Source: an uncultured Pseudomonadota bacterium
GTDB taxonomy: Bacteria > Pseudomonadota > Alphaproteobacteria > Rs-D84
DNA: 64,000 bases
Assembly (NCBI GenBank): GCA_946613885.1
Contig: CAMOGA010000002.1
Span: 44,880 to 108,879 of the forward strand
Reading direction: 5' to 3'
Below the pieces are notes generated by a model. The model ran no database searches. It worked only from the letters and a program-made list of their open reading frames with translations, and was not told the origin of the DNA. Below are positions 39,697 through 43,373 of the stretch, piece after piece. Position 1 is the stretch's first letter. Each line of letters starts with the position of its first letter. The translations under genes and the position numbers were made by a program.

Positions 39697-41382
39697 ATGC
39701 TGCTTACAGAATTAGAACGTCAAGAAATTGTAAAAATGATTAAAGAATACAAAAGTGCACATAAAAAATTGGCAGATAATTACAAATCACGCCGTGCACG
39801 TACTGTTGTAAATAGTGTAAACAAACGTGTTGAACGTTATTTTGAAATGATGAATTATAAATCAGATGAAATTACATCTGACGATGTTAAATATTTTTCC
39901 TTGATTGTGGATATTTTTGAACCAATGCGTCGCAATTCTTTGTTAAAAGAATTGCAAAAACATGCGGATTTTGACGTGTTTTTATATGTAGAAAATTATA
40001 ACAACGGTTTGGTTAAACGTATTTCGAACAGTGTAAAAAATGATTTAAATGATTTGTCTCCGAAACAAATGGACAAGATATGTGTTAAATATAAAACAGC
40101 ACGGGCAAATTTGAAAAAAGGCAGAAATATACACAAAAATACAGCATTTATTGAACAGTGTCGTTTGGGTGCATATGCGTATGCGCGTGCAATAATTAAT
40201 GGTAATGTAAGTATAGATTCAATAGATGTAAATTCTGCATATGCATATTTGACACAAATATGTCCTTCGTGTGTTGATGGTGATGAAATGGAAAGTGCGC
40301 AAAATTTGTTGGCACAAAAAATCCAAGAAAATAAAGAAAACAATATTAATGCAGAAGAATTAAAACGTCAGCAGGAACAAGAACGTGCACAGCAAAAACG
40401 TCAGCAAGAGCAAGAACGTGCACAGCAAGAACGTCAGCAAGAGCAAGAACGTGCACAGCAAAAACGTCAGCAAGAACAAGAACGTGCACAACAAAAACAA
40501 CTGCGCAAACAAGAACGTCAGCAAAATCGTCAAATCTTTTTTGGCGGTATCAGACAAAAATTTAGAGATTTTATAAATAATGCCAGAACCACATTTGCAA
40601 ACGATACAACGGTTGAACATGCTGATTTTGAACCTTTGTATGAACAGGCAGATGTCGCTGAAACAAATCAACGTATGGTTGAAAATCATACCCAAAACAC
40701 AGAACCGGTTGTTGAAGAAAAACAACGTAAAGAAAAAACTAAAATACATCGTTCTATATTTACACGTGTTGCGGCGGTTGCTGCTGTGGCGGCTGTTATT
40801 ACCGCAGGTATTGCGATGTTCAAATCTGATAGTAATAAAAACACTAAATCGCAACCAGAACCAATAAAAAAAGAAGTAAAACATACACCTGTTATGCAAA
40901 AACAAACAATTAATCAAACAAACAATGAAACCATTGCGCCATTGGATACGGCATATGCACGTGCATTAAAGAATTATTATAATTCTGCGCTGGATATTAT
41001 CGCAGGCAACAAAAAATCAGATGTTTTGAATAAAATTGAAAATCAGGTTAAATCTGGAAACGTTGCATTGTCAGATTCTATTACGGTTGAACGTATTGCG
41101 TATGCGTATTTTATATATCGTGAATACGGATTCAATATTGATATATTAAATCTGGCTGTAAATGGTAATCAACAATTAACCAAATCTCAACAACAAGAAT
41201 TAATTCGGGTTATCAAAGATGCCGGCGAACGTGGAACAGGTGTTCAAAAAATGGCAAAACAACGCCTTGAATCACGTGGGGGACAATTAAGTTCGCACAG
41301 TAAATTTAAAAACGCATCTAAACAACAACAGCGTCAACATTTGGTGAATCTGGGGTTGTTGAAAAAAGCACATGTAAGATAA
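39697..41382 (+). CDS. Large coiled-coil protein with one membrane segment
   Basis: A 561-residue protein. Residues 1-205 are helical with a Cys-containing region; about 210-285 form an uninterrupted Gln/Glu/Arg coiled coil with four 11-residue repeats (RQQEQERAQQK); about 345-365 is a single membrane segment (VAAVAAVAAVITAGIAMF); the C-terminal domain (about 410-561) is helical and soluble. It resembles no family I know. The membrane segment with basic KIHR on one side suggests the N-terminal part is cytoplasmic and the C-terminal part periplasmic. It is transcribed from its own promoter and precedes the aspS T-box leader. Confidence 0.55.
   Translation: MLLTELERQEIVKMIKEYKSAHKKLADNYKSRRARTVVNSVNKRVERYFEMMNYKSDEITSDDVKYFSLIVDIFEPMRRNSLLKELQKHADFDVFLYVENYNNGLVKRISNSVKNDLNDLSPKQMDKICVKYKTARANLKKGRNIHKNTAFIEQCRLGAYAYARAIINGNVSIDSIDVNSAYAYLTQICPSCVDGDEMESAQNLLAQKIQENKENNINAEELKRQQEQERAQQKRQQEQERAQQERQQEQERAQQKRQQEQERAQQKQLRKQERQQNRQIFFGGIRQKFRDFINNARTTFANDTTVEHADFEPLYEQADVAETNQRMVENHTQNTEPVVEEKQRKEKTKIHRSIFTRVAAVAAVAAVITAGIAMFKSDSNKNTKSQPEPIKKEVKHTPVMQKQTINQTNNETIAPLDTAYARALKNYYNSALDIIAGNKKSDVLNKIENQVKSGNVALSDSITVERIAYAYFIYREYGFNIDILNLAVNGNQQLTKSQQQELIRVIKDAGERGTGVQKMAKQRLESRGGQLSSHSKFKNASKQQQRQHLVNLGLLKKAHVR
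40366..40497. repeat. Four 33-bp tandem repeats in the coiled-coil gene
   Basis: Unit starts at 40366, 40399, 40432 and 40465 (33-bp period), encoding 11 residues each; a degenerate fifth copy follows. Confidence 0.85.
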
Positions 41383-41430
41383 TATCTGCTTGCAAAAAAA
41401 ATATTTGGTTATAAAATAATGTATTATTTT

Positions 41431-41600
41431 ATGGGTGCGGGGCTGATGATATGACCGACAACCATGTAGGCACCAAAACCCAACAAAAGTGATAAATTCG
41501 GGTGGCACCGCGCGCCATTAATTTATAAATGTTCGCGCCCCGGAAATAACAAAATAATGGTGCCGATTTTTTATTGGCACCCATAAAACAAAAGGGTGTA
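41431..41600 (+). promoter_or_regulatory. T-box riboswitch of aspS, translational type
   Basis: The leader contains CGGGTGGCACCGCG (41499-41512). It forms the classic antiterminator: helix A1 CGGG (41499-41502)/CCCG (41539-41542), a 7-nt bulge TGGCACC (41503-41509), helix A2 GCGCG (41510-41514)/CGCGC (41534-41538). The TGGC would pair with the GCCA end of a tRNA with G73, as tRNA-Asp has. A short Stem I-like hairpin (41434-41474; outer GGTGC/GCACC, inner 41449-41453/41463-41467) displays GAC followed by A (41457-41460) in its loop. The second half can switch: GGCACC (41504-41509) pairs with GGTGCC (41559-41564), releasing CACCC (41578-41582) to block the Shine-Dalgarno GGGTG (41594-41598). 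The alternative pair 41559-41564/41576-41581 frees it. No T tract follows, so control is likely translational. Details of Stem I are uncertain. Confidence 0.85.
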
Positions 41601-41603
41601 AAA

Positions 41604-43373
41604 ATGTTATCTTTGAAATCAAAATACAGAACGCACACATGCGGCGAATTAAACGAAACAAATGTTGGCGAAACTGTCACTTTATCTGGATGGGTTCATC
41701 GTAAACGTGATCACGGATCTTTGTTGTTTGTCGATTTGCGCGATAATTATGGTATCACACAGTGTGTGTTTGATGGTGGGGACGAAAATCTGGAAAAAAT
41801 TCGTCCAGAATCTGTTATAAAAATTACAGGTAAGGTTGTTGCACGTGATAAAGATGCAATCAATGATAAAATTCCTACTGGTCATATTGAAATTCAATCT
41901 GGTAAATGGGAAGTATTAACAAATTCAGAAGTTTTGCCGTTCCAAGTGTTTGGTGATGAAGATACCGGTGAAGAATTGCGTTATCAATATCGTTTCTTGG
42001 ATTTGCGTCGTGAAAAATTACATCATAATATTTTAATGCGTAATAAAATGATAAAGTGGATGCGTGACAAGATGTGGGAATTGGGATTTTCTGAATTTCA
42101 AACACCGTTGTTAACGGCTGATTCGCCCGAAGGTGCGCGCTGTTTCTTGGTTCCATCACGTTTGAATCATGGAAAATTTTATGCGCTGCCCCAGGCACCA
42201 CAAATGTTTAAACAATTATTACAGGTTGCTGGTTTCGACAGATATTTCCAAATTGCACCATGTTTTCGTGATGAAGATTTACGTTCAGACAGATTGTTGG
42301 AATTTTATCAATTAGACGTTGAAATGTCATTTGTTGATTTGCCTGAAATTCAACGTGTAGGCGAGGTTGTAATTCCTGAATTAATAAAAACATTTGCGCC
42401 AGATGCCAATGTATATCCAGAAATTCCGCATATATCTTTTGATGATGCAATGTTAAAATATGGTTGCGATAAACCAGATTTACGCAATCCGATTTTAATC
42501 AGCGATGTGACAGAAATATTCCGCGGTTCTGATTTTGGAATTTTTGCAAATGCAATTGAAAATGGGGCTGTTGTACGTGCGATACCTGCACCGGATACTG
42601 CCGAAAAACCACGTTCTTGGTTTGATAAATTGGTCGAATATGCCACAAAAGAATTAGGATTGGGTGGTTTGGCTTATATCGTTTTTGCCGATGAACCAAA
42701 GGGTCCTGTTGCAAAAAAATTGGATGCCGACAGAATTGAACAATTGCACAAAATCGCAGGTGATAAATCTACATTATTCTTTGTTTGTGATACAGAAGAA
42801 GTCGCAGCCAAGGCGGCCGGTAAATTGCGCAATAAATTGGGTGCAGATTTGGGTTTGGTAAATCCACGTGATTTTGCAATTTGTTGGGTTGATAATTTCC
42901 CATTTTTTGAACCAGATGAAGACAGGGGCGGTGCACCAATGTTCACTCATAATCCGTTCTCTTATCCGTTGGCAACATTGGAAGAATTGTCAACCAAAGA
43001 TCCATTTACAATCAAGGCGGCACAATTTGATATGGTTATAAATGGTATTGAAATGTGCAGTGGTGGTCTGCGTAATTATAACCCAGATGTCATGAAAAAA
43101 TGTTTTGATATTGCGGGTTATCCAATCGAGGCCGTAGAAAAGAACTTTAACGCATTGTACACAGCGTTTAAATACGGTGCACCACCACATGGCGGTTTTG
43201 CATTTGGTATTGACCGTTTGATTTCTGAGATTTTGGGAACAGGTGAAAGTTTACGTGAAACTGTTGCTTTCCCGGCAAATCAACGTGGTCAAGATTTATT
43301 AATGGGATCACCAAATGAAGTTAGTGAACAACAATTAAGGGATGTTCATATTAAAATCCGCGATAAAAATTAA
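41604..43373 (+). CDS. aspS: Aspartyl-tRNA synthetase
   Basis: A 589-residue class II synthetase: N-terminal OB-fold anticodon-binding domain (LSGWVHRKRDHGSLLFVDLRD), the bacterial GAD insert in the middle (about 300-420), motif 2 with QAPQMFKQLL and FRDEDLRSDRLLEFYQLDVEMSF, and motif 3 GFAFGIDRL near the end. It charges tRNA-Asp and, if nondiscriminating, also tRNA-Asn. ATG 41604 has AAAGGG upstream, embedded in the switch; an earlier in-frame ATG at 41574 falls inside the leader hairpin. This is a direct target of the T-box leader. Confidence 0.97.
   Translation: MLSLKSKYRTHTCGELNETNVGETVTLSGWVHRKRDHGSLLFVDLRDNYGITQCVFDGGDENLEKIRPESVIKITGKVVARDKDAINDKIPTGHIEIQSGKWEVLTNSEVLPFQVFGDEDTGEELRYQYRFLDLRREKLHHNILMRNKMIKWMRDKMWELGFSEFQTPLLTADSPEGARCFLVPSRLNHGKFYALPQAPQMFKQLLQVAGFDRYFQIAPCFRDEDLRSDRLLEFYQLDVEMSFVDLPEIQRVGEVVIPELIKTFAPDANVYPEIPHISFDDAMLKYGCDKPDLRNPILISDVTEIFRGSDFGIFANAIENGAVVRAIPAPDTAEKPRSWFDKLVEYATKELGLGGLAYIVFADEPKGPVAKKLDADRIEQLHKIAGDKSTLFFVCDTEEVAAKAAGKLRNKLGADLGLVNPRDFAICWVDNFPFFEPDEDRGGAPMFTHNPFSYPLATLEELSTKDPFTIKAAQFDMVINGIEMCSGGLRNYNPDVMKKCFDIAGYPIEAVEKNFNALYTAFKYGAPPHGGFAFGIDRLISEILGTGESLRETVAFPANQRGQDLLMGSPNEVSEQQLRDVHIKIRDKN

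Follow-up and report, generated by a model that had tools for sequence, protein, structure and literature searches.

A reduced T-box upstream of aspS in an alphaproteobacterial order, with a predicted translational relay

Does the leader of aspS in a 64,000-nt stretch of DNA from an uncultured alphaproteobacterium (the window) contain a T-box, and how could such an RNA control its gene? T-boxes are regarded as mainly Gram-positive, and the initial annotation had nevertheless placed one here; it turns out to be of a kind that most genomes in a single alphaproteobacterial order share.

Anatomy and conservation of the aspS leader

The gene aspS (41604-43373, plus strand, as are all leader features below) encodes a bacterial-type aspartate--tRNA ligase (AspRS) of 589 aa, which scores 710 bits with NF001750 (cut-off 443) and 555 bits with TIGR00459 (cut-off 373.85). 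Its leader (41433-41604) contains the T-box core GGGTGGCACCGCG between the end of an upstream frame at 41382 and the ATG at 41604. A promoter-like TTGCAA-16-TAAAAT (41390-41417) would start transcription just 5' of Stem I; we treat it as a weak lead only, because one such site is seen in the window and 1.5 are expected in shuffles.

The lower helix of Stem I (41434-41474) has eight covarying pairs beside the kink in relatives. In the window it is imperfect in the fixed alignment register, and an alternative pairing of GGTGC (41434-41438) with GCACC (41470-41474) is possible. The K-turn-like motif (41445-41468) has a 3-nt bulge (41445-41447) and GA (41448-41449) opposite TA (41467-41468); GA faces GA in 27/29 leaders and TA in the window and one relative (L024). 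A K-turn at the base of Stem I is described as a T-box feature in a passage of PMC7583486. The specifier hairpin (41451-41465) pairs ATG (41451-41453) with CAT (41463-41465) below a 9-nt apical loop, ACCGACAAC (41454-41462), in which the Asp codon GAC (41457-41459) is followed by A, as first annotated; GAC or AAC is kept in relatives. An A-rich linker (41475-41486) takes the place of Stem II and IIA/B, judging by the spacing in 29 leaders. The antiterminator or antisequestrator (41499-41542) consists of helix A1 (CGGG 41499-41502 with CCCG 41539-41542), helix A2 (GCGCG 41510-41514 with CGCGC 41534-41538) and, between them, the 7-nt bulge TGGCACC (41503-41509), which has the form UGGNACC and whose TGGC complements a tRNA 3' end GCCA with G73. 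Read from the window sequence, all segments given in the initial annotation are correct to the base, including GGTGCC (41559-41564) and GGCACC (41576-41581) 3' of the antiterminator.

A search for aspS returned 80 loci, of which the closest 28 (82-93% identity) are recorded as Alphaproteobacteria or proteobacterium, many of them with record titles naming rumen or gut samples. The exact core lies 94-133 nt 5' of the ATG in 28/28 of these loci and is found in 0/52 of the others, where a covariance model at E 1 also finds 0/52. Across 29 leaders, the proposed structure shows 91.1% standard pairs compared with 75.9% in shuffles, 113 cells with double-sided changes compared with 44.2, and a covariation score of 0.478 compared with 0.193 (sd 0.018) in shuffles and 0.065-0.164 in slid registers; compensatory changes in aspS leaders were a check that the initial annotation had named. 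Helices A1 and A2 are 100% paired and the bulge is invariant, the first A1 pair being CG in 13 leaders, AU in 12 and GU in 4. The specifier hairpin helix is 98.9% paired, and all 8/8 pairs of lower Stem I have changes on both sides, with 79.3% of cells paired. The total folding energy of the leader is unremarkable (z -0.24). A leave-one-out covariance model, built from the 28 relatives with the window excluded, gives the window element 76.4 bits and an E of 3.6e-18 across the 64 kb, where the second-best match has E 0.31.

The Rfam search proposed at the outset gave a weak match only. RF00230 scores the window leader at 22.1 bits (E 0.014), short of its gathering score of 93; at the gathering threshold three tRNAs and no T-box are found in the window, and at E 0.001 RF00230 has no match in the window's genome. 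A large part of the standard Stem I is absent, as are Stems II and III in full, and we file the leader as a T-box variant because the gathering score is missed. The distance from specifier to GGGTGG is 43-47 nt in 29 leaders, leaving no room for Stem II, IIA/B and Stem III. Stem II (S-turn) and the IIA/B pseudoknot of class II T-boxes are absent from the window leader. Where a T-box has Stem III the window has no stem, only a flank-like AAGTG-ATA-AA (41487-41496) that fits the flank motifs RRRxG and AA of Stem III given in a passage of PMC7583486. The bases at -5,-4 are AA in 61/76 leaders, AG in 11 and AT in 4. The ordinary T-box implied by the initial annotation thus gives way to a reduced form that lacks both Stem II and Stem III.

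Chance or contamination as its source is ruled out by the relatives, the covariation, the order-wide occurrence described below and the leave-one-out E of 3.6e-18. From its sequence, structure and covariation, the leader is likely to be a T-box RNA that retains only one K-turn-like hairpin and the antisequestrator, and it is predicted to act as a tRNA-dependent translation switch. The original observation is confirmed overall, and its interpretation is supported by comparison.

The predicted switch downstream of the bulge

No terminator-like site was found in 41340-41640, in agreement with the translational type first proposed. Most known T-boxes act by controlling termination, and the same order does hold a transcriptional T-box 5' of tyrS (L148:1501-1638, minus strand, in G017), whose bulge reads TGGTACC and whose terminator-like hairpin has a T run. 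In the window, however, no run of T follows the hairpin at 41559-41581, and we consider a transcriptional T-box at this aspS extremely improbable.

In the predicted translational switch, AspRS translation would be turned on by the binding of uncharged tRNA-Asp or, where a relative shows AAC, of uncharged tRNA-Asn. The tRNA would base-pair at two places, through its anticodon with the GAC of the apical loop and through its 3' end GCCA with the TGGC of the bulge, which would refuse a charged 3' end. Without tRNA, T-box GGCACC would pair with a middle switch element, GGTGCC (41559-41564), freeing a third element, GGCACCC (41576-41582), to mask the Shine-Dalgarno region AAAGGGTG (41591-41598, 5' of the ATG at 41604). 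With tRNA filling the bulge, the middle element would instead fold into a hairpin with the third, leaving the ribosome site open. In 11/14 short leaders of relatives, the Shine-Dalgarno sequence itself is GGTGC or GGTGT and could be masked directly by the T-box, and the relay of the window looks like such a direct-masking switch with a second, relaying hairpin.

The 76 distinct leaders comprise 58 long and 14 short ones, with L118 (plus strand), L125 (minus strand), L217 and L126 in neither set. GGTGCC, the complement of the T-box, occurs 3' of the antisequestrator in 53/58 long leaders compared with 1.5 expected, and GGTGYY in 58/58 compared with 3.6 expected; in the short leaders, 0.85 Shine-Dalgarno regions with GGTGY are expected and 11/14 have it, all but L131, L145 and L192. 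Among 55 distinct long leaders, the middle element pairs better with its own third element than with swapped ones (-10.96 vs -10.01 kcal/mol; 0/2000 permutations), the third element likewise with its own Shine-Dalgarno region (-7.55 vs -6.52 kcal/mol; 0/2000), and the control pairing of the middle element with the Shine-Dalgarno region gives no signal (1850/2000), although these counts are not probabilities because leaders share kinship. Both alternative pairings of the three-segment swap that had been proposed are therefore leader-specific, with a negative control, which supports the translational relay.

The same results bear on whether the T-box or another leader segment could mask the Shine-Dalgarno region of the window directly, the middle/third hairpin being a spacer. 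This would fit with GGTGC or GGTGT as the Shine-Dalgarno sequence in the short-leader relatives, with the complementarity of the window's own GGGTG to Stem I GCACC and T-box CACC, and with a folding of the window that does not favour the relay. Against it, the leader-specific pairings link the third element to the middle one and to the Shine-Dalgarno region, and none links the middle element to the Shine-Dalgarno region; various long leaders have GGGACC or GGGAAC as Shine-Dalgarno sequence, with no T-box complementarity left. We therefore regard direct masking in the window as unlikely and retain the three-element relay.

In energy models of the 58 long leaders, the Shine-Dalgarno region is on average 0.666 unpaired in the on state vs 0.521 in the off state, with on above off in 43/58, but just 20/58 have the off state as the lower-energy one. 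An earlier folding model of the free state put on above free in 44/58 long and 9/12 short-type leaders. The window's own leader gives equal energies for both states (-44.9, -45.1), with its Shine-Dalgarno region 0.94 unpaired off and 0.79 unpaired on. Masking by the last segment, as first proposed, thus appears on average over the 58 leaders but not in the off model of the window itself, and we do not take folding as proof of the switch because the window fold alone shows no masking. In the leaders of L015/L094, L016, L021 and L108, the stretch that separates the Shine-Dalgarno region from the third switch element contains a near-identical hairpin-like piece, CCCACTTCGCCAAGGCTTCGTGGGAC.

Specifiers, tRNAs and the two AspRS types

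The 76 distinct leaders come from the loci fetched, largely best-scoring, and not from all 163 genomes with a match (see below). A script seeking [GA]AC at the hairpin-defined place found a specifier in 69/76 leaders, GAC in 53 and AAC in 16, followed by A in 61 and by G in 8, and the hairpin is fully paired in 59/69, as GTG/CAC, GCG/CGC, ATG/CAT, CCG/CGG, ACG/CGT or CGG/CCG. GAC followed by A, in front of aspS, gives the window a specifier that fits the downstream gene with a purine after it. Of the remaining seven leaders, all but L129 belong to longer T-boxes; on visual inspection, the specifier is GAC in L129, L130 and L131 and AAC in L118 (plus strand), L125 (minus strand), L145 and L217. 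A tandem-codon reading of GACAAC was rejected because the second triplet is variable (AAT, AAA, ACC, GCC); a two-codon T-box of C. acetobutylicum was reportedly described by Saad in 2013.

The tRNA 3' end is G-CCA in tRNA-Asn of the window's genome (G000) and in tRNA-Asp of a congener (G020), so the expected match of TGGC to G73 holds, with the bulge C complementing the discriminator (for tRNA-Asp, that of the congener). The window's genome has three tRNA-Asn genes; typing of 30 of the 35 tRNA hits in this assembly, which is 91% complete, revealed no tRNA-Asp. Its class II synthetase-family proteins are three, namely AspRS, a LysRS-like and an asparagine synthetase A-like protein, with no AsnRS among them, and GatB is present. 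The asparagine synthetase A-like protein (L214, G000:C20:6782-7648), an AsnRS relative, falls in the PRK06462 group with 252.7 bits, below the cut-off of 389. In the good congener genomes G020, G094, G127 and G162, this family consists only of AspRS and one LysRS-sized protein. Since AsnRS is missing and GatB present, AspRS probably also charges tRNA-Asn for GatCAB, and an Asn specifier would then make sense. H31 is a residue of non-discriminating AspRS.

Some relatives have a second, archaeal-type enzyme, named aspartate--tRNA(Asn) ligase by NCBIfam. It exceeds the NCBIfam cut-off in L122, L123, L126, L130, L287, L295-L297 and L300; the partial L118 falls just short of it (344.5 of 353 bits), and L217, L218, L299 and L125 are assigned by likeness. 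In the eight two-enzyme genomes with both leaders read, the archaeal-type gene has AAC in 8/8, and the bacterial aspS has GAC in 5 (G174, G175, G176, G178, G195) and AAC in 3 (G076, G080, G100). The archaeal-type frame of G175 is only 79 aa in the stretch read, and G098 was excluded from the count, having two aspS leaders (AAC, GAC) and an archaeal-type gene whose leader start was unread. We rejected a clean Asp/Asn split between the two AspRS genes because it holds in only 5/8 genomes. Archaeal-type genes with a short T-box have GAC in L122, L126 and L130 and AAC in L123.

Longer T-boxes with an AAC specifier and parts like Stem II and IIA/B also lie 5' of archaeal-type AspRS genes (L118, plus strand, before 1963; L125, minus strand, near 1851; L217, L218, L287, L295-L297, L299, L300). 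In several of them, the A1 3' strand with the next bases, TCCTTGTGTT, complements the Shine-Dalgarno region AACACAAAGGA, suggesting a second translational design. Three genomes, G038 (L115/L132), G098 (L114/L133) and G178 (L118/L134), have two aspS genes, each with a T-box, and perhaps represent mixed strains.

The T-box shape might also be a remnant, kept for mRNA stability or protein binding after tRNA sensing was lost. The loss of Stem II, IIA/B and III and the ordinary folding energy would be consistent with this, but the TGGCACC bulge is invariant, the R-A-C specifier is accompanied by compensatory changes in its hairpin, and AAC recurs at every archaeal-type AspRS gene counted in the two-enzyme genomes, which makes a remnant highly improbable. 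For a leader predicted to sense tRNA, the GAC/AAC change beside two AspRS types is a natural experiment on specifier identity.

Occurrence, longer relatives and known T-boxes

We scanned the order of the window's genome, which we take to be RF32 in GTDB, with covariance model R1 at E 0.001. Matches were found in 163/201 genomes, a count that includes the source genomes of R1 itself, in 108/126 good genomes and in 12/23 genera. Eight of the 38 genomes without a match were inspected: six have no apparent bacterial-type AspRS by score and length (G045, G085, G088, G183 (zero matches), G188, G191), and two (G179, G190) have aspS without the T-box core, G179 having a longer T-box 5' of its archaeal-type gene (L300). 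No further T-box of this type was found in the window's genome, where the next matches have E 0.3. A phylum sample of 398 genomes yielded the window's genome, one congener and two matches without the T-box bulge. RF00230, run at E 0.01 on 385 genomes sampled from the class, had 10 matches, four in the window's genus (its own genome included), one in its order and five from three other families. Weak matches were dropped at L135, where the core is absent, and at L263 and L264, where the bulge is absent. In another family of the class (G417), a canonical T-box of 110.3 bits, over the Rfam cut-off, lies 5' of a DAHP synthase gene (L144:1501-1741, minus strand); it too has a terminator-like hairpin, and is a possible case of transfer or contamination.

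The relatives and the order give comparative support to the alphaproteobacterial host named at the start. The T-box is, however, a feature of most genomes of the order, and Rfam T-box matches occur in three further families of the class. By comparison of sequences, the reduced T-box is real and present in most genomes of the order, with a predicted translational relay.

Longer T-boxes of relatives were judged by inspection. In the same order, the aspS T-box of G200 (L131) has Stem II and IIA/B and lacks Stem III, and G016 (L130) keeps Stem II alone, 5' of an archaeal-type enzyme; those of families f94 and f95 (L145-L147, L149) are apparently complete. RF00230 matches them at E 1.1e-6 (L131), 9.4e-10 (L145), 5.8e-7 (L146), 1.9e-5 (L147), 6.7e-5 (L149) and 0.0015 (L130), L131 from the order and L145 from the class being aspS leaders. 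At E 0.01 it leaves the short T-boxes of L120 and L126 unmatched, and the longer aspS leaders of order and class are also below its gathering score (37.1-55.9 bits). In a tree of AspRS, f95, f5/f6 and f1 cluster (83/99) and f95 adjoins f1 (95/83), with G288 (f94) and L184 unplaced; rows L038, L042 and L050 (wrong-frame pieces) were disregarded, and the tree was built without 22 of L001-L028 and without L198, a duplicate of the window. The longer T-boxes in relatives suggest a stepwise loss of stems, which would be the simplest reading. We lean towards the view that AspRS control in this order rests on the most reduced natural T-box described, made up of an anticodon-reading hairpin, a string of purines surviving from a deleted Stem III and the antisequestrator, that its three-segment relay arose from direct masking, and that the specifier shifts between GAC and AAC because AspRS serves both tRNAs. 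Since this T-box lacks parts that structural work deems essential, it offers a direct test of a minimal tRNA-sensing RNA, and with apparent intermediates in relatives (Stem III or IIA/B gone) and two kinds of switch, the reduction could be replayed in vitro.

Among the matches listed in a search of mostly open-access literature, no report of a T-box in Alphaproteobacteria appears in titles or abstract openings. According to an excerpt of PMC2494555, a 2008 survey found T-boxes in 2/125 proteobacterial genomes, Geobacter and Pelobacter, both 5' of leuA, and an excerpt of PMC7778990 states that the class II model of the T-box database was run on Actinobacteria and on those class I hits whose Stem I is truncated.

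The window leader shares with the canonical T-box of RF00230 the GGGTGGCACCGCG core, the UGGN bulge and the purine after the specifier, but measures about 110 nt vs 219 model positions and has no long Stem I. Glycine T-boxes, as portrayed in passages of PMC7583486, likewise lack Stem II. Unlike the window leader, they keep a long Stem I and Stem III, and they have a GGC specifier. The class II T-boxes with ultrashort Stem I upstream of actinobacterial ileS, in the descriptions excerpted from PMC10651847 and PMC7583486, resemble the window in their K-turn (a K-turn-like motif in the window), their short Stem I with an apical loop and no elbow-binding tip, their antisequestrator and their place in front of a tRNA ligase gene. 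The window leader differs from them in lacking Stem II, the IIA/B pseudoknot and Stem III, in the Asp/Asn specifiers of its kind and in its alphaproteobacterial host, and its order differs in the predicted use of a three-element relay or of direct Shine-Dalgarno masking.
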